Of a DNA stretch of 64,000 bases, positions 34,538 through 44,018 are shown one piece after another. Origin of the DNA: Cupriavidus sp. MP-37. Lineage in GTDB: Bacteria > Pseudomonadota > Gammaproteobacteria > Burkholderiales > Burkholderiaceae. The translations under genes were made by a program, and so were the position numbers. Every line of letters starts with the position of its first letter. The first letter of the stretch is position 1. The stretch covers positions 1,116,001 to 1,180,000 of the forward strand of contig NZ_CP085345.1 of assembly GCF_020618415.1 (NCBI RefSeq). Reading direction: 5' to 3'. The notes under the pieces were generated by a model, which saw only the letters and a program-made list of their open reading frames with translations, did no database searches and was not told where the DNA came from.

Positions 34538-34571
34538 CGCGTCGGCATGCCTGTGCCGGCACGTCATTATC

Positions 34572-34641
34572 TTAGACGTCGAATTTTTCTTGACAGGGCA
34601 GGACAAGGCGTTAGTATTAGGCCATGTACTTCGATCTCTAA
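34572..34641 (+). promoter_or_regulatory. nadC-paralogue promoter with two flanking operator palindromes
   Basis: Operator 1, TTAGACGTCGAA (34572-34583), precedes a -35 TTGACA (34590-34595) and a -10 TAGTAT (34612-34617, 16-bp spacer). Operator 2, TTCGATCTCTAA (34630-34641), lies around or just past the expected start site. The two operators start 58 bp apart. The same arrangement, nearly base for base, occurs before the kinase-phosphorylase fusion gene at 36469-36537. This geometry is typical of repression, most simply by the MarR protein encoded between the two promoters. Confidence 0.8.
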
Positions 34642-34681
34642 GATTAAAGAAGTACCAACATCCCTCGTTCAGGAGCCCTAC

Positions 34682-35515
34682 ATGTACGACCTCTATGCCA
34701 CCGACAAGCTGATCGACCTCTGGTTGACCGAAGACATCGGCATCTGCGATCTGACCGTTCATACCATGATCGAACCAGGTGAGACCGGAACTTTCTGCAT
34801 GAACGCGCGCGAGCCGATGATCATCGCTGGTATCGACGTGGCAGCACGCATCTTCAGCCGCTACGATCCCACCCTGTCCGTCGACGTCCGCGTGGCCGAC
34901 GGCGACAAGGTTGGCAAGGGCGCGGTGCTGCTGAACGTGAGCGGCAATGCACGCAGCGTGCTGACGGCCGAGCGTACCGCGCTGAACATCATGCAGCGGC
35001 TGTGCGGCATCGCCAACCACACCGCCACCTATGCGCAGGCAATCGCGCATACCAAGGCGCGGCTGATCGACAGCCGCAAGACCACGCCCGGCCTGCGCGC
35101 CCTGGAAAAGCATGCAGTGACCTGCGGCGGCGGACTGAATCACAGGCTGAGCCTGGACAACGGCGTGATGATCAAGGACAACCACATCGCCGTTTGCGGC
35201 AGCATCGCCGCCGCAGTGGAGCGCGTGCGCCGCAAGCTGCCGGTCCTGACCAAGCTGGAAGTGGAATGCGACCGGCTGGACCAGGTGCACGAGGCACTGG
35301 CCGCCGGCGTCGACGTGATCATGCTGGACAACATGTCCGTGCCCGACATGAAGGAAGCGGTGCAGATCGTCAATGGCCGCACCAAGGTCGAGGCTTCGGG
35401 TGGCATTCGCCTCGAAACGATCCGGGCCGTGGCGGAAACCGGCGTGGATTACATCTCGACCAGCCGGATCACGCAGTCCGCGCCGGCGGTGGATATCGGG
35501 CTGGACGAAGCCTGA
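34682..35515 (+). CDS. nadC: Nicotinate-nucleotide pyrophosphorylase (quinolinate phosphoribosyltransferase) paralogue
   Basis: 277-aa type II phosphoribosyltransferase: quinolinate + PRPP to nicotinate mononucleotide + CO2 + PPi. All family motifs are present: ERTALNIMQRLCGIA (residues 97-111, substrate Arg98), DSRKTTPGLRALEKHAV (130-146), GGGLNHRLSLDNG (149-161, His154-Arg155), MIKDNHI (Lys165), LEVEC (192-196), IMLDN (213-217) and EASGGI (237-242). AGGAG lies 6 nt before the ATG MYDLYATDKL. There is no nadA/nadB nearby, so it is not in the usual de novo NAD operon; it is paired by promoter identity with a PRPP-forming fusion enzyme. A ModD-type role is less likely because no molybdate transporter genes are near. 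Confidence 0.9.
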   Translation: MYDLYATDKLIDLWLTEDIGICDLTVHTMIEPGETGTFCMNAREPMIIAGIDVAARIFSRYDPTLSVDVRVADGDKVGKGAVLLNVSGNARSVLTAERTALNIMQRLCGIANHTATYAQAIAHTKARLIDSRKTTPGLRALEKHAVTCGGGLNHRLSLDNGVMIKDNHIAVCGSIAAAVERVRRKLPVLTKLEVECDRLDQVHEALAAGVDVIMLDNMSVPDMKEAVQIVNGRTKVEASGGIRLETIRAVAETGVDYISTSRITQSAPAVDIGLDEA

Positions 35516-35592
35516 AACCCAAACCTCGGAAGCTCGGCGCTTGCCCGGGGCGGCGCTGGCACACTGGTTTCACGCCTTCTACCCAAGGCATT

Positions 35593-35626
35593 CCCCCTCG
35601 CCTGCCGCGCCGGCGGGGGCATTTTT
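35593..35626 (+). terminator. Terminator of the nadC paralogue
   Basis: A GC-rich stem (CCCCCTCGCC with GGCGGGGG, one bulged T) is followed by CATTTTTC. It lies about 80 bp past the nadC stop and before the convergent marR stop. Confidence 0.65.
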
Positions 35627-35647
35627 CATTGGCAGCGGCCGCTCGGG

Positions 35648-36193
35648 CTACAGATCGGACAGCAGCCGCCCCACCTCCTGCGTAGATGGCACACGCCTGC
35701 CATGTTCCGCGGAAGCGATCTCATCGGCAACCAAGCGCTTGGCGATGGTGATCAAGACGCGGCGTGTGGTCAGCACATCCTCCTCGCTCACTCCCTCCAC
35801 GCTCAGTTCATTGACCTCGGTGGCCAGCGGTTCGAGCTTGCGGCGCAGCGCGCGTCCGGTCTTGCTGAGGAAGACGTGCACCTTCTTCTTGTTGCCGGGC
35901 AGATGCGTGCGTTCCACGTAGCCAAGCGCCTCCAGCGCCTTCACCGCCGCAAACGTAGTCGGCTCGGTCACGCCGGCGCGCTCGCTCAGTTCGCGTTGCG
36001 ACAGGCCGTCATGGCGCCACAGAATACGCAGGATGGTCCAGTGCCCATATGACACGGAATGTTCCGCCAGGCGCAGTTGCAGTGCCCGGATATACGCGCG
36101 CGCGGCGTCTTTCACCAAGTGGGCAAGCCGCTCTTCATCGGCTTCTTCCGGTGGGGTGATTGCGACCGGGGCGTCCGGCTTTCTTGTGGCCAT
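35648..36193 (-). CDS. MarR-family transcriptional regulator
   Basis: 181-aa winged-helix regulator. Core elements are YGHWTILRILWRHDGLSQRE, LSERAGVTEPTTFAAVKALE (recognition helix region) and the wing GYVERTHLPGNKKKVHVFLS. It lies between nadC and the phosphorylase fusion gene, on the opposite strand, and is divergent from the latter. MarR proteins bind short palindromes and respond to aromatic carboxylates, which fits the duplicated TTmGAyrTCkAA sites at both neighbouring promoters. The start is uncertain: MATRKPDAPV is taken here, and an ATG 30 bp upstream (MDAFHFLLTT) is also possible. Neither has a strong ribosome site. Confidence 0.9.
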   Translation of the reverse strand: MATRKPDAPVAITPPEEADEERLAHLVKDAARAYIRALQLRLAEHSVSYGHWTILRILWRHDGLSQRELSERAGVTEPTTFAAVKALEALGYVERTHLPGNKKKVHVFLSKTGRALRRKLEPLATEVNELSVEGVSEEDVLTTRRVLITIAKRLVADEIASAEHGRRVPSTQEVGRLLSDL

Positions 36194-36546
36194 AGTGGTA
36201 AGCAGGAAGTGAAACGCATCCATGCGGCACCGGCCCAGCTGGTGCCCGCAACAGCGCACATGATAGCGCTTCCGTCGCGCGCGCGGCGCTGCGGTGCGCC
36301 GGCGTTCCCCACGCCGGTGTAGCGTCCACTCCATCGGTGCACCATGCGCGCAATCGAAGCAAAAGGCACTACGACCGCGCACGTCGCTTACCCGTGTTTT
36401 CCCCTACGGAGGCGCAAATCCCGCGTACACGCTGGCTTTGCAGGTGCTGGTCCGTTGCTTGCATAACATTAGACATCGAACTTTCCTTGACAGTGCCACG
36501 GCGGGTGCTAGCATTCTCAAATAACTTCGACATCTAAGGTGTTAGC
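36194..36546. other. Divergent intergenic region marR / kinase-phosphorylase fusion
   Basis: 353 bp. The right end holds the promoter and operators of the fusion gene (36469-36537). The rest probably carries the marR promoter, but no clear hexamers were identified and no gene is supported. Confidence 0.55.
36469..36537 (+). promoter_or_regulatory. Promoter with paired operators before the kinase-phosphorylase fusion gene
   Basis: Operator 1 TTAGACATCGAA (36469-36480), -35 TTGACA (36487-36492), -10 TAGCAT (36509-36514, 16-bp spacer) and operator 2 TTCGACATCTAA (36526-36537). Operator starts are 57 bp apart. Operator 2 abuts the AAGG ribosome site, so a bound regulator could also hinder translation initiation or early transcription. 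The layout copies the nadC promoter at 34572-34641, with identical spacing of -35 and -10. Confidence 0.8.
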
Positions 36547-38352
36547 ATGGGCACGAGCGGCACGTTCTTCTTTGTGGTGGGCCCCAGTGGCGCGGGCAAG
36601 GATTCGTTGATGGACGGCGCACGGGCAGCGCTCGATGACAACTACGTGTTTGCCCGGCGCGTGATCACGCGCCCCGATGGCGCCGCCGGCGAAGCACATG
36701 AAGCTGTCTCGGAGGCAGAGTTCGCCCGGCGCCAGCGCAGCGGGGAATTCCTGGTAACGTGGGATGCGCACGACCTGCGCTATGGCTTGCCACGTTCGCT
36801 GATGTCCGAGCTGGAACGGGGACGCAACGTCGTCGCCAACGGCTCGCGCGCCGTGATCGCGGAACTGGCCGGGCGCCTGCCACGCTTCGTGGTCGTCCTG
36901 GTGACGGCACCACAAGACGTGCTGGCGCGACGCATTGCCGCGCGCGGGCGTGAATCGGGCGAGCAGGTTGCCAGGCGCGTGGCGCGGACCGGTGCGGCGC
37001 TGCCGCCGGATGTCACGTGCATCACCGTGTCGAACGACAGCACGCTGGAGGTGGGCAGGGCCCGTTTCGTCCAGGCGCTGCGGCACGGCACGCGTGTATC
37101 CGGCGCCGGAGCACCGTCCAGCCGCACCAACCTGATGGCGAAGCTCCGCGGCGAGCCGCTCGACGAAGCGGCCTACGTTGCCGTGCTGCGGGACGCCATT
37201 GAGGGACGATACACCGAAGCCGAGCTGACCGAGTTCCTGGTTGCCGCCGCCCGCTCGCTGGGCGACGAGGAAGTGGTGGCACTGGCACGCGCGCGTACCG
37301 CATTCACACCGCGCATCGAATGGGACGAGCCGATCGTCGTCGACAAGCATTCCATCGGCGGCGTGCCCGGCAGCCGCATCACGTTGATCGTCGTACCGAT
37401 CGTCGCTGCGTACGGGCTGGCCATGCCCAAGACGTCGTCGCGCGCCATTACCTCCGCCGCCGGTACCGCTGATGCCATGGAAACCGTGGCGCGCGTGGAC
37501 CTGGCGTATGAAGACGTGCGCCGCTGCGTGGCGCAGGCACGCGCCTGCATCGCATGGAACGGCCGCCTGAACCATTCCGTGGTCGACGACGTGATGAACG
37601 CGATCACGCGTCCACTGCGCCTGGATTCGCGGCGCTGGTCGGTAGCGTCAATCCTGTCCAAGAAGTACACCGCCGGGGCCACGCACGTCATCGTCGACCT
37701 GCCCTATGGCCCGCAGACCAAGCTGACCACGCGCGCCGACGCCGAGGCGCTCGGCGAGATGTTCGAGTACGTCGGCAAGGGGCTCGGCCTGCACGTGCGC
37801 GCGCTGGTAACGGACGGCAGCCGTCCGATCGGCCGCGGCATCGGGCCCGCACTTGAAGTTCGGGATGTTCGCCAGGTGCTAACCAACGATCCGCGCGCCC
37901 CCGCGGACCTGCGCGAGAAGGCCTTGCGCTTCGCCGCCGAAATCATCGCCTTCGATCCGCGCGTGGGTTCGGCTGGCGAGGGCTTGCGCATTGCAACGTC
38001 GCTGCTGAGTGCAGGCGAGGCAAACGCCGCGTTCGACCACATTACCGCCGCGCAGGGCAAGCGCGCCGATCCCGTGGCGCCCGGTGCGCATACGCACATG
38101 GTGAACGCATCCGTTCATGGCCGCGTGGTGGCCATCGATGGACTGCAGATCTCGTGCGTCGCGCGCGCCGCCGGGGCGCCGCGCGACGCTGGAGCGGGCG
38201 TCGACCTGCTATGCGAAATCGGGGCCAGGGTGGCGCAAGGACAACCTCTATACCGCATCCATGCCGGCAGCGAGGCGGCACTTGCGATGGCAGCCGCACT
38301 GGCACGCGCGGACGGCGAGTGCGGCGAGGCCGTTCGTATAGATCCCGATTGA
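36547..38352 (+). CDS. Fusion: PhnN-type ribose 1,5-bisphosphate kinase + AMP-phosphorylase-type nucleotide phosphorylase
   Basis: 601-aa two-domain protein. Residues 1 to about 184 are a PhnN/guanylate-kinase fold with P-loop GPSGAGKDS (12-20), [19 protein letters not shown] (lid/substrate region) and [20 protein letters not shown]; PhnN makes PRPP from ribose 1,5-bisphosphate and ATP. Residues from about 195 to 601 are a thymidine/AMP phosphorylase: [17 protein letters not shown] (264-280), [20 protein letters not shown] (294-313) and the C-terminal PYNP-like domain. The KHSIGGVPG and KTSSRAIT forms match AMP phosphorylases, which release ribose 1,5-bisphosphate from nucleoside monophosphates, more than thymidine phosphorylase. 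The extra N-terminal domain of archaeal AMP phosphorylase appears to be replaced by the kinase. Together the domains could turn an NMP or NaMN into free base plus PRPP. The frame is continuous, with no sign of assembly error. Confidence 0.88.
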
Positions 38353-38395
38353 CCGGCTTTCCCCCATCCCCCGCCCTAACCGACGAGGCATATCA

Positions 38396-39388
38396 ATGAG
38401 ACCCCTATCCGTCGTCAGCAGTCTGGCATCGCTGCTCTTTGTCGCGGGCAGCCTGGCAACCGTGCCAGGGCGCGCCGAGGCAAACATCGCAAGTCCCTTC
38501 CCGCAGAAGCCCATCCGCATGGTGGTGACCTTCCCGGCCGGAGGAGGCACCGATTCGCTGGCGCGACTGATCGGGGCCGACATCAGCAAATCGCTGGGCC
38601 AGCCGGTAGTGGTCGACAACCGCCCTGGCGCCAGTGGCAATATCGGCGCGGAGTTCGTCGCCAAGAGCCCGGCCGACGGCTACACGCTGCTCATCGTCAA
38701 CAGCAGCTTCGCCATCAACCCGAGCGTATTCAAGAAGCTGCAATTCAATCCCAGATCCGATTTCAGCGCCATCATCACCTTCGCTTCGGTGCCGTCGGTG
38801 ATCGCCGTCCCCTCGCATTCGAAACTCCGCACCTTCGGAGACCTGATGGGCGCCGGCAAGAGCGGCTCGCCACCTAGCTATGCGTCGTGCGGAAACGGCA
38901 CCCCGCAGCATCTGGCGGGCGAGTTGCTGAAGGTGTCGGCAAAGATCGACATGCTGCACGTGCCGTACAAAGGGTGCGCCCCCGCCATCGCCGACGTGCT
39001 GGGCAACCAGGCCGACGTCAGCATCAACACACTCACCAACACCATCCCCTACCTGAAAAGCAACAAGCTGCGCGCGCTGGCCGTCACGTCGAAGGCCCGC
39101 TCGCCGTTCCTGCCAGACGTGCCCACTGTCAGCGAGCTAGGCGTGGCCGGCTATGACGTCGACCAGTGGTTCGGCATTCTCGCCCCGGCCAATACGCCCC
39201 CGGAGATCGTGCAGCGGCTGAACGCGGAAATCGCCAGGGCCATTGCCAAGCCGGAGATCAAGGCATCGCTGACACAGCTCGGCTATGCCACGACCACCAG
39301 CACACCCGCTGAATTCCAGAAGCTGGTGAACGCCGACATCGATCGCTGGCAGAAGTTCACAGCCAAGATCAGCCTGCGCGTCGATTGA
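38396..39388 (+). CDS. TctC-family (Bug) periplasmic solute-binding protein
   Basis: 330 aa with a signal peptide (residues 1 to about 29, ending GRAEA). Mature motifs are PIRMVVTFPAGGGTDSLARL, VVVDNRPGASGNIGAEFVAK, MLHVPYKGCAPAIADVLG and PDVPTVSELGVAGYD. It lies 43 bp after the kinase-phosphorylase fusion on the same strand and is probably co-transcribed with it. Bug proteins bind small carboxylates, including pyridine carboxylates in some cases, so a pyridine dicarboxylate such as quinolinate is a reasonable ligand guess. No membrane partner is adjacent; the tctBA pair at 60.5-62.5 kb is far away. Confidence 0.87.
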   Translation: MRPLSVVSSLASLLFVAGSLATVPGRAEANIASPFPQKPIRMVVTFPAGGGTDSLARLIGADISKSLGQPVVVDNRPGASGNIGAEFVAKSPADGYTLLIVNSSFAINPSVFKKLQFNPRSDFSAIITFASVPSVIAVPSHSKLRTFGDLMGAGKSGSPPSYASCGNGTPQHLAGELLKVSAKIDMLHVPYKGCAPAIADVLGNQADVSINTLTNTIPYLKSNKLRALAVTSKARSPFLPDVPTVSELGVAGYDVDQWFGILAPANTPPEIVQRLNAEIARAIAKPEIKASLTQLGYATTTSTPAEFQKLVNADIDRWQKFTAKISLRVD

Positions 39389-40764: not shown

Positions 40765-41727
40765 TCACTCCGGCTTGATCTTTGCCTCCTTCATTCGGGT
40801 CGCCCAGCTTTGAAGCTGAGCGCGCACAAATTGTTGCTGGGCCTCGACCCCATTCGGTGCGACCTCCATCCCCATGCCCATGAAGCGCTCGCGAACTTCA
40901 GGCCTGGCCAGTGCCTTGTTGACCGACGCATTCAGGCGTTGCACGATTTCCGGTGGAATTCCTGCCGGACCGGCAAGCCCGACCCAGAAAACCAGGTCGT
41001 AGGACTTGAAGCCCGCTTCCGCAAACGTGGGGACGTTCTTCCACTCGGGCAGGCGATGTTCCGTGCTGACCGCAAGCGCACGGATCTTTCCGCCCTTCAT
41101 GAGCGCCGTTGCCACCGACAGGTCGCCGACGACATAGTCGATTTGTCCGCCAGCGAGGTCGGTCAGCGCCGGAGGCTGGCTCTTGTAGGAGACGCCAACG
41201 GCCTGAAACCCCGCAATCCGGTTGAACGCTTCCGCCGCAACCTGGCCACCGGGCGAGCCATAGCCAAAATTCAGCTTGCCGCTCTTGCCGCGCTCCACAA
41301 GCTGCGCCACCGTCTTGATTTCGCTGTCATGCCGAACCAGCAGCAATGCCGGCATGGTCGTAAGGCGGGCAATGTGGGTGAAGTCTTGCGTCGCATCGTA
41401 CGGAAGATTCTTGACGAGCCCGGGATTGATCGAATTGATGGAGCTGCTCGAGATGGTCAGGGTATAGCCATCCTTCGGTGACTTGAGCGCGTATTCGGTA
41501 CCGATGACGCCCTGGGCCCCGGGGCGGTTCTCAACGACTACCGTTGTCCCCAGGTCTTTGCGGAGCTCTTCCGCAAGGATGCGGGCGCTGGTGTCGGTGG
41601 CGCTGCCTGCCGAGAACGCCGCGACGATCTTGATGGTCTTGTTGCCCGGGTACGCGTCCGCCGCGAAGACCGCTGCATTGGCCAACAGTGCGGTACCAAA
41701 GAACACAGCTTGAACGATGCGCTTCAT
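40765..41727 (-). CDS. TctC-family (Bug) periplasmic solute-binding protein
   Basis: 320 aa, signal peptide ending NAAVFA-A (about residue 22). Family motifs are IKIVAAFSAGSATDTSARIL, VVVENRPGAQGVIGTEYALK, VSYKSQPPALTDLAG and NVPTFAEAGFKSYDLVFW. AGGAG lies 7 nt before the ATG. It is the last gene of the acyl-CoA dehydrogenase / unknown / CoA-transferase operon (37 bp after the transferase), so its ligand is probably the acid handled by that operon. Confidence 0.88.
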   Translation of the reverse strand: MKRIVQAVFFGTALLANAAVFAADAYPGNKTIKIVAAFSAGSATDTSARILAEELRKDLGTTVVVENRPGAQGVIGTEYALKSPKDGYTLTISSSSINSINPGLVKNLPYDATQDFTHIARLTTMPALLLVRHDSEIKTVAQLVERGKSGKLNFGYGSPGGQVAAEAFNRIAGFQAVGVSYKSQPPALTDLAGGQIDYVVGDLSVATALMKGGKIRALAVSTEHRLPEWKNVPTFAEAGFKSYDLVFWVGLAGPAGIPPEIVQRLNASVNKALARPEVRERFMGMGMEVAPNGVEAQQQFVRAQLQSWATRMKEAKIKPE

Positions 41728-41764
41728 TTCTGTCTCCTGTCATTTTTCTCTGCTTGCTGACGAA

Positions 41765-42931
41765 TCACTTCATCCAGACGGCGGTCGCTTCGTTGCCTGC
41801 TTCCTTCAAGCTGCCCAACGCCGGCGCACCGCTACGAATCGACGCCGGCGTCCCCCTCAGCTTGATCGGAACACCGGGACCGACGTAGTCGCCTTGCCTG
41901 ACCACCATCTGCCGGTGCAGGGTGTGAGGTGCCCCGGCAACATCTGCAATGCTGAGGATTGGCGCGGCCGGCACGTTCCGGGCCAGCAACGCCTTGCCAA
42001 AGGATTCGCCGTCCACAGCGGCGAAGGCCCTGGACAACGCGGCGGTCAGCGCTTCGCGATTGACCACTCTCCGGCGATTGGTGGCAAAGCGCTCGTCCTC
42101 TGCCAGGTGCCGGGCGCCCAATGCCTGGCACAGCTTCCCGAACAGGCGGTCATTGGCTGCCGCGACGAACAACGGACACGTCGCGGTCTGAAAAATGTCG
42201 TACGGAACGATATTGGGATGGCTGTTTCCCGTTGGCTTCGGGGTCACCCCGGAGGCCAGGAAGTTGGTCAGGAACGGATGGGCGACCGACACTGCGGAGT
42301 CGTACAAGCTCACATCGGCAAGCTGACCGCGGCCGGTCTGGTTGCGCGCATTCAAGGCCAGCAATACAGCCATTGCGGCGTTCATGCCCGTCGTCAGGTC
42401 CACCACCGGCACGCCCAGGCGAACAGGTTGGGCCTCCGCCTCGCCGTTGATACTGATCAGGCCCGCCATGGCTTGCACTGCCGCATCGTAGCCGGGTAGT
42501 TGCCCCAGCGGACCATCGTCGCCAAATCCGGTGACGCGGCAGTGTATGAGCCGGGGGAAACGTTCCGTAATGCTGGACGGATTGTCGATGCCCCATGTCT
42601 TCAGCGTGCTCGCCTTGAAGTTTTCGATGAGGACGTCGGCCGTCTCCAGCAGCTGCCAGAAGGTGGCCCTGTCGGCCTCGACGTTCATGTCGAGGATCAT
42701 GCTGCGCTTGTTCCGGTTGACGGCGCGGAAGTAGGCGGATGCGCCGTCTACGAAAGGCGGGCCGAAGCCCCGGCACTCATCGCCCTCGGGCGCCTCGATC
42801 TTGATCACGTCCGCGCCATGGTCGCCAAGAATCTGCCCGCAGAGCGGGCCGGCCAGCACCCGCGATGCATCAACGACACGCAGTCCGGAGAGCGCCCCCT
42901 GAGCGAATTCAGCTTTGCTTGCATCGGCCAT
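41765..42931 (-). CDS. CaiB/BaiF (class III) CoA-transferase
   Basis: 388 aa. The N-terminal LSGLRVVDASRVLAGPLCGQ and GADVIKIEAPEGDECRGFGP are family hallmarks. The VVDLTTGMN motif places Asp at about residue 178, the position of the catalytic Asp that forms the aspartyl-CoA intermediate in formyl-CoA transferase. It moves CoA between acyl donors and a carboxylic acid. AGGGG is 6 nt before the ATG, and the gene begins 1 bp after the stop of the upstream unknown gene. Likely role: activating the acid imported by the adjacent TctC before dehydrogenation. Confidence 0.88.
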   Translation of the reverse strand: MADASKAEFAQGALSGLRVVDASRVLAGPLCGQILGDHGADVIKIEAPEGDECRGFGPPFVDGASAYFRAVNRNKRSMILDMNVEADRATFWQLLETADVLIENFKASTLKTWGIDNPSSITERFPRLIHCRVTGFGDDGPLGQLPGYDAAVQAMAGLISINGEAEAQPVRLGVPVVDLTTGMNAAMAVLLALNARNQTGRGQLADVSLYDSAVSVAHPFLTNFLASGVTPKPTGNSHPNIVPYDIFQTATCPLFVAAANDRLFGKLCQALGARHLAEDERFATNRRRVVNREALTAALSRAFAAVDGESFGKALLARNVPAAPILSIADVAGAPHTLHRQMVVRQGDYVGPGVPIKLRGTPASIRSGAPALGSLKEAGNEATAVWMK

Positions 42932-42932
42932 T

Positions 42933-44018
42933 TCAGTCCCCTTCGATCGCCCACTCAAAGGCATAGCCCTCCTTGCCCTTGTGCCAGGTGGTTTTCAGGG
43001 ACAGGCGGTGGTTGTGCGCCGCGAGGGCCCCTTCGAACAGGCCACACCATGCGTCGGCCACGCACGGATGTGCATCGGACACCGGATCCATCAGCGTCCA
43101 GCCGCGCTGATAGACCTGGCTACCGAAGCCGCCGATCTCGCACGCATCATCCTGGGCGCGAGCCAGTCTCTCCATAAACGTGGCGAAGCTGGCGGCAGAC
43201 TGGTCGACAGGCGTGCGGAGCTGCGCAGCGGTCTCGTGATAGAACTGCATGCCGATCATCCTTGCCGTCAGGCGCAGCAGCCGCTCCGCTTCATGCGGAC
43301 CCCAGAGGTTTGCCGCGACAGGAAGCGCGGTGCGCACGTACTCCATCGCGTAGTTGCGCCTTGCCTTGTCGAGCCGCGCTTGCGGCCATGTATCGGTAGG
43401 CAGCGTCGGTGCCGCGGCAGCATCGAAATCCGGAGCGTCTTCATTGCGTGCGAAGCGCAGCCGTTCATGGGGCGCGAGGTCATGGTCGTACTCGTAGTAG
43501 TAGCCCTCGAGACCGGATTGGCCGTCTGCCGCCTGCTTGGTGCAGACAAAGCCCAAGCGCGGATTGCCAAGGGTCACGCCATTCTGGGCATGCCAGCCCG
43601 CGAGCATCGCCCGCGAGACTTCGGAAGGGATGCCACACAGCGCCGTGCCAGACCAGATCCAGCGCGGGGCGTTGTAGCGGATCCAGGCCTTCCTGTCGCT
43701 CTCATGCATGTACTGCACGGCCACGCCGCCGATATGGTTGGAGAGGTAGTGATACTGGGCCGCTGCCACCGCCGCCGGAAGTCCGTCGATGCCGAGCTTG
43801 CGCAGTCCGGCCAGGAAACGTTCGCGGCGCTGGCGGCAGAAGATCTCATACACCAGCTCGGCTGCCGCCGGCGTGCCCTTGCGGGTCACGGTCGACAGGA
43901 CAATACCGGTGAAGAAAGCGTGGTACAGCCCGGCGACGGCCCGCCAGCCTGCCTGCGGCTGGCATTGGTCCAGACCTGGGTTCGGCATGTCGCCGCGCAT
44001 GGGTTTCGCCTGTGTCAT
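42933..44018 (-). CDS. Conserved-looking protein of unknown function in a CoA-ester catabolic operon
   Basis: 361 aa, no signal peptide or TM segment seen. It is rich in Trp/Tyr/His, with distinctive stretches FFTGIVLSTVTRKGTPAA, QYHYLSNHIGGVAVQYMHES, YNAPRWIWSGTALCGIPSEV and LEGYYYEYDHDLAPHERLRF. Several His/Glu/Asp pairs could bind metal. I do not recognise the family with certainty. Its ATG overlaps the acyl-CoA dehydrogenase stop by 4 bp and its stop is 1 bp from the CoA-transferase ATG, so it is tightly coupled to both and is probably a catalytic or accessory component of that pathway. Confidence 0.75.
   Translation of the reverse strand: MTQAKPMRGDMPNPGLDQCQPQAGWRAVAGLYHAFFTGIVLSTVTRKGTPAAAELVYEIFCRQRRERFLAGLRKLGIDGLPAAVAAAQYHYLSNHIGGVAVQYMHESDRKAWIRYNAPRWIWSGTALCGIPSEVSRAMLAGWHAQNGVTLGNPRLGFVCTKQAADGQSGLEGYYYEYDHDLAPHERLRFARNEDAPDFDAAAAPTLPTDTWPQARLDKARRNYAMEYVRTALPVAANLWGPHEAERLLRLTARMIGMQFYHETAAQLRTPVDQSAASFATFMERLARAQDDACEIGGFGSQVYQRGWTLMDPVSDAHPCVADAWCGLFEGALAAHNHRLSLKTTWHKGKEGYAFEWAIEGD

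Follow-up and report, generated by a model that had tools for sequence, protein, structure and literature searches.

Why would a bacterium keep a second nadC gene apart from the genes of nicotinamide adenine dinucleotide (NAD) synthesis? The question is raised by a locus at positions 34572-39388 of a 64,000-nucleotide stretch of Cupriavidus sp. MP-37 DNA (GCF_020618415.1, contig NZ_CP085345.1, positions 1,116,001-1,180,000 of the forward strand), hereafter the window, in which a second nadC (nadC2) is found with a MarR gene, a gene fusing PhnN to a nucleoside monophosphate (NMP) phosphorylase relative, and a gene for a TctC protein of the Bug27 type. The module probably encodes, and we hold this with good confidence, a pathway from quinolinate to nicotinate with 5-phosphoribosyl 1-pyrophosphate (PRPP) as a recycled carrier, a reading that is well supported by comparison between genomes and whose key step, on nicotinate mononucleotide (NaMN), we infer from sequence.

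In the proposed pathway, the Bug27-type protein, or elsewhere TRAP-TAXI or ABC systems, would help to import quinolinate, which NadC2 would convert with PRPP to NaMN, CO2 and pyrophosphate by loss of the 2-carboxyl group. The phosphorylase half of the fusion would then split NaMN with phosphate into nicotinate and ribose 1,5-bisphosphate, and the PhnN half would recharge the sugar with ATP, giving PRPP and ADP. The net reaction would be quinolinate + ATP + phosphate to nicotinate + CO2 + ADP + pyrophosphate, and the cost given in the original prediction, which was made from the letters alone, is right by stoichiometry: per quinolinate, one ATP becomes ADP, one phosphate is used, and one pyrophosphate and one CO2 are released. 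Nicotinate would pass to the cell's own breakdown, of the nicC/nicX type in the Cupriavidus and Pseudomonas module genomes reached through the loci and of the 6-hydroxynicotinate reductase (Hnr) type in many alphaproteobacteria; salvage and degradation had both been suggested as its fate, and breakdown is favoured over NAD salvage. As part of this joint reading, it is rather likely that the pyridine nitrogen is phosphoribosylated to allow decarboxylation and then freed by phosphorolysis, with the sugar recharged by the same polypeptide. The chain from NadC through NaMN phosphorolysis to PhnN, as first proposed, gains comparative support because the genes are conserved neighbours, Hnr is linked to them in 16 loci, NicX or Hnr accompanies them in 45 of 50 genomes, the host has a nicotinate cluster, the TctC protein is of the Bug27 kind, the operators are private to the locus and the phosphorylase clade has its own pocket-aligned changes; the use of NaMN by the phosphorylase stays a prediction.

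Every part of the locus is backed by family models and conservation, and an artefact of the open reading frame list was accordingly rejected. The nadC paralogue is complete, as had been noticed: its reading frame (34547-35515, plus strand) scores 316.7 bits with the nadC equivalog model TIGR00078 (cut-off 198.4), and the start is probably at 34682, because homology mostly begins near residue 46, which places the gene at 34682-35515. The MarR-family gene lies at 35648-36382 on the minus strand (PF01047), as predicted, and its true start is probably internal, since relatives align mainly from about residue 51 onward. The fusion gene (36547-38352, plus strand) begins with a PhnN-type ribose 1,5-bisphosphokinase (residues 5-179; TIGR02322, 186.5 bits, cut-off 156) and continues with a phosphorylase half (residues 183-588) whose structure is like that of solved members of the nucleoside/NMP phosphorylase fold, and which scores 413.5 bits with TIGR02645 (cut-off 434.6) and 362.1 bits with TIGR03327 (AMP_phos; cut-off 535). 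A fusion of PhnN with an AMP phosphorylase had been proposed; the fusion and its PhnN half stand, but the second half, which has the same fold and falls below the equivalog cut-off, is classed as related to AMP phosphorylase and not as AMP phosphorylase itself. The last gene, a tctC (38396-39388, plus strand; PF03401) also recognized at the outset, encodes a protein that, among solved structures, comes nearest to Bug27 (2qpq, 367.1 bits, against 200.6 bits for the runner-up). Binding of quinolinate is known for Bug27, at sub-micromolar level, and for Bug69 (PMC11452294), and the TctC protein is presumably a quinolinate binder of the Bug27 type. A role in phosphonate breakdown is not favoured; the sole other full PhnN-like match in the genome lies elsewhere (C2:351968, 38%), and the phosphonate surroundings of the two copies were not part of the analysis.

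The arrangement recurs in other genomes. Scanning named genomes turned up 55 loci, and because the fusion was what led to them, this set is biased toward close relatives. nadC2 adjoins phnN-phosphorylase in 50 of them, which is part of the co-occurrence that the original prediction had proposed to look for; the remaining five comprise a locus with no NadC2 on the contig (L044), two with the match at a contig end (L047, L051), one from an archaeon (L055) and one with PhnN only (L057). Of the 50, 46 have PhnN and phosphorylase as one fusion and four have them separate or frame-changed, and the gap between nadC2 and phnN is 13-56 bases in the 42 loci from outside Cupriavidus and about 1 kb in the eight Cupriavidus loci, where it holds the MarR gene. 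Tree distances of NadC2 and of the phosphorylase correlate (r 0.87 over 53 leaves, not corrected for species history). In the reverse direction, NadC2 matched four plasmid records at 58% identity or more, three of which carry the module. A single match covering both halves of the fusion was found in no other genome among 185 genomes of the class.

The neighbouring genes include importers and genes of nicotinate breakdown. The fetched flanks of the 50 loci hold a TRAP-type transporter in 20 cases, an ABC system in nine, TctC in eight and Hnr in 11, and none of these in two. Hnr, identified through annotated relatives on plasmids, lies within 13 kb of the module in 16 loci, 11 of them seen in the first flanks and five in stretches fetched further out in six genomes, where Hnr shares the stretch with the module in L111-L115 and not in L116. 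Hnr is rare on plasmids (26 of 72,556 records), and the three annotated clusters place it beside a molybdenum hydroxylase or nicAB genes together with a ferredoxin reductase, two of the three also with UPF0280 and two genes of amino-acid-synthesis families. At one module locus (L041), a single strand carries in sequence a molybdenum hydroxylase gene, hnr, UPF0280, nadC2 and the fusion, and in Roseovarius nubinhibens (L115) one strand carries the hydroxylase, hnr, UPF0280, two amino-acid-synthesis genes, ferredoxin reductase, TAXI, TRAP, nadC2 and the fusion; an FRG-domain gene stands among these genes of the Roseovarius nubinhibens cluster on the opposite strand (L048). In two Bosea loci (L020, L021), ferredoxin and ferredoxin reductase genes lie upstream of nadC2, with two electron-transfer flavoprotein genes as well in L021, and these ferredoxin and flavoprotein genes could serve Hnr.

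Whole genomes give a similar picture. When 50 of the 55 loci were taken as genomes and counted by hand (L044, L049, L051, L055 and L057 were left out), NicX was found in 23, Hnr in 25 and either of them in 45. The host itself carries a nicotinate-breakdown cluster on contig C1, with a NicX-like protein that scores 408.8 bits to 7cn3, a solved 2,5-dihydroxypyridine 5,6-dioxygenase, a NicC-like protein that scores 557.8 bits to 5eow, and a nicB-like match (C1:2931160) of 58% identity with one TGA within the aligned stretch. Other genes of the cluster we take, from their position and from general knowledge, to be NicF, NicD, NicE and NicA, their NCBIfam matches being below the cut-offs. A search of the host for NicX with PF02073 gave no match, and this model is evidently a poor probe, since the NicX-like protein matches the solved dioxygenase so strongly; a search of the host for Hnr found none, the NicX/NicC type being present instead. 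The same contig carries the other nadC together with nadA (374.8 bits) and nadB (668.8 bits), and NadC2 is 43% identical to the product of that nadC over the matched part. The lack of nadA and nadB that had first been remarked on thus holds for the module locus and not for the genome, which does not show the absence of both genes that would go with NAD salvage in place of de novo synthesis. De novo NAD synthesis as the main reason for nadC2 was rejected, given this separate nadA-nadC-nadB set. With a nicotinate cluster and its own nadA, nadB and nadC, the host therefore appears to be short only of a route from quinolinate to nicotinate, a gap that the module would fill.

In the main alternative, the phosphorylase splits AMP, CMP or UMP, PhnN makes PRPP from the sugar, and NadC2 turns imported quinolinate into NaMN for NAD. 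This combination of NAD salvage and PRPP supply, which we regard as unlikely, agrees with the activity of the studied archaeal relative on AMP, CMP and UMP (PMC9700705), with the title of a cited reference that ties E. coli phnN to NAD biosynthesis, and with a 2024 paper that notes bug27 beside nadC and phnN and proposes a role in NAD metabolism (PMC11452294). It fits poorly with the separate nadA, nadC and nadB of the host, with the many genomes that link the module to nicotinate breakdown, and with residues aligned to the base pocket that are unlike those of other bacterial phosphorylases and of an archaeal one. The phosphorylases that are linked to PhnN/NadC group in a single clade of 56 leaves (support 1.0), to which the other bacterial phosphorylases are paraphyletic in a tree rooted on the archaeon. 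All 56 locus rows and all 120 database hits have R250, N338, H343 and N351, whereas M, G, L and I stand at these positions in each of the 31 other bacterial phosphorylases; at position 354, the linked clade has T (45 rows), N (10 rows) or V (1 row), and 31 of 31 others have E. These signature residues were placed in the base pocket by sequence alignment, in which N351 and T354 fall on Tyr199 and Arg202 of human thymidine phosphorylase, although the alignment near 354-365 may be one residue off; both human residues matter for activity or base binding (PMC2719695). The catalytic residues, whose roles are known from the human enzyme (PMC2719695), are kept: H268 aligns with His116, and S368 (Ser217) and K372 (Lys221) are present in 56 of 56 clade rows. 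We read the linked phosphorylases as performing the same chemistry on a different base, with NaMN as the putative substrate.

For the other two reactions, the known families are a guide: that of the PhnN half follows from its family, and NadC2 would, like its relatives, make NaMN from quinolinate and PRPP. R177, K178, H199, R200, K210, E240 and D261, covering the basic pocket and the ribose-binding residues, are kept in 53 of 53 aligned NadC2 rows, the roles of the basic-pocket residues being taken from pig quinolinate phosphoribosyltransferase and mapped by motif (PMC3633916). This correspondence to the pig enzyme, together with the likeness of the TctC protein to Bug27, makes it improbable that the same cycle acts on a different pyridine-2-carboxylate, for instance a substituted quinolinate, and releases a derivative of nicotinate, even though NadC2 forms a family distinct from the host's own NadC and the importers vary between lineages.

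Several observations weigh against a route from quinolinate to nicotinate. The linkage to Hnr comes mostly from Bosea (12 of the 16 loci), two of the NicX matches have only 35% identity and without them either gene is found in 43 of the 50 genomes, and neither NicX nor Hnr was matched in five of the 50 module genomes (G201, G212, G222, G224 and G231). Among 298 Pseudomonas genomes, the fusion (at least 60% identity) occurs in five and NicX in 61; NicX is present in three of the five genomes with the fusion and in 58 of the 293 others, numbers too small to prove a link. This test, not corrected for kinship, is supportive and not decisive, because the two fusion genomes without NicX (G277, G481) also lack nadC2 and yet carry a fusion with the same signature residues. 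A plasmid NadC of 58% identity stands without the module beside cobalamin genes, and no membrane partner for the TctC protein was found in the region examined. Loss of Bug69 in B. bronchiseptica caused no growth defect on quinolinate (PMC11452294). The two genomes with the fusion and without nadC2 or NicX would suit a safety valve, in which phosphorylase and PhnN do no more than return surplus NaMN or nucleotides to base and PRPP without growth on quinolinate, but this leaves the importers and nicotinate clusters beside the module unexplained and is very improbable.

Parts of the proposed route from quinolinate to nicotinate have counterparts in known systems. CobT releases nicotinate from NaMN in cobalamin synthesis with a cobalamin base as acceptor; the likeness to the proposed step is that NaMN gives up free nicotinate, and the difference is that the acceptor is not phosphate and that PRPP is not remade. 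Hydroxylation routes for quinolinate also exist. A paper on E. coli xapA (PMC3923242) reportedly suggests a precedent for a nucleoside phosphorylase that acts on a pyridine base. Known sets for nicotinate breakdown (nicC/nicX or Hnr) begin at nicotinate, whereas the module, which in 16 loci is part of an Hnr-type cluster or next to one and in its host accompanies NicC- and NicX-like proteins, would add upstream steps from quinolinate. In the NMP (AMP) phosphorylase pathway of Thermococcus kodakarensis, the bases are A, C and U and the sugar is passed on to an isomerase and Rubisco (PMC9700705), whereas here the kinase would remake PRPP and the aligned base-pocket residues differ. A precedent in gene content is the bug27-nadC-phnN neighbourhood of Variovorax and Jezberella (PMC11452294), with the same genes, namely a Bug27-kind TctC, nadC and a gene annotated phnN, which in Variovorax sp. 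SRS16 also covers the phosphorylase match; that paper sees PhnN as a supplier of PRPP for NAD metabolism, and the word "phosphorylase" appears zero times in its main text. Full-text searches of an open-licence library, which did not extend to subscription papers, showed no account of the pathway among the items and passages they brought up.

In Cupriavidus, the module also appears to have its own control. The matching promoters seen in the sequence are borne out as consensus matches: TTGACA-16-TAGTAT before nadC2 (34590-34617, plus strand; boxes at 34590 and 34612) and TTGACA-16-TAGCAT before the fusion (36487-36514, plus strand; boxes at 36487 and 36509). Besides TTGACA and the spacer length of 16 bases, the two have a TAG-AT -10 box in common, and inverted copies of TTAGAYRTCGAA stand on both sides of each promoter. 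On the nadC2 side, both operators located in the alignment of Cupriavidus loci, the upstream half of the pair is a perfect match (TTAGACGTCGAA, 34572-34583, plus strand) and the second has one mismatch (TTAGAGATCGAA, 34630-34641, minus strand); on the fusion side, the upstream operator (TTAGACATCGAA, 36469-36480, plus strand) and the second one (TTAGATGTCGAA, 36526-36537, minus strand) are both perfect. Both fusion-side sites are also perfect in eight of eight other Cupriavidus loci, and at least one nadC-side site is perfect in seven of the eight. Within the window, four sites have at most one mismatch, where shuffling gives a mean of 0.14, and the 6.1 Mb genome has three perfect matches, all of them at this locus; at up to one mismatch, the genome-wide count is 33, no excess over a control of 37. 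The operator set is private to the locus, and no further perfect operator that would extend the MarR regulon was found in the genome. The MarR protein, whose gene sits between the two promoters, is the obvious candidate to bind these sites; it likely regulates both in Cupriavidus through the predicted operators, with quinolinate as the presumed inducer.

The gene set is common to many bacteria of soil and sea and seems capable of feeding quinolinate into the breakdown of nicotinate (vitamin B3). It is a likely reading that PRPP serves as a catalytic, traceless activating group, that the module, with importers that can be exchanged, is a route of quinolinate breakdown across alpha-, beta- and gammaproteobacteria, and that it includes a new NaMN phosphorylase activity. 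If true, this would provide a genetic basis for the use of quinolinate, a neuroactive product of the kynurenine pathway, as food, and proteins now annotated as PhnN or thymidine phosphorylase would gain a new activity. It would also explain nadC paralogues that stand outside NAD synthesis, offer a case of PRPP recycled as a carrier instead of consumed, and assign a function to one group of the orphan TctC/Bug proteins.

Some further arrangements were seen around these families. The solitary nadC without the module lies on a Paracoccus plasmid (L119:9998-10834), and may supply NaMN for the lower ligand. L117 and L118 stand for the two Pseudomonas-group genomes in which the fusion is present and nadC2 was found nowhere. 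Phosphorylases of the same family that lack PhnN, from the same taxonomic class (L068-L096), have a PRPP-synthase homologue as neighbour at 27 of the 29 loci, and NadC2 was seen in none of the 29, which are only 3-4.3 kb long; the pair, which looks undescribed, may be another ribose 1,5-bisphosphate or PRPP route. In the window, RtcB is followed at 40765-42964 on the minus strand by a second TctC gene, with 37% identity to the first across 283 residues, and by a CoA-transferase family III gene. An FRG-domain gene, or a tblastn relative of one, is found near the module in five genera (L063:12478-13287, L064:13915-14679, L018:6003-6917, L023:2891-3610 and L048:3063-3824).

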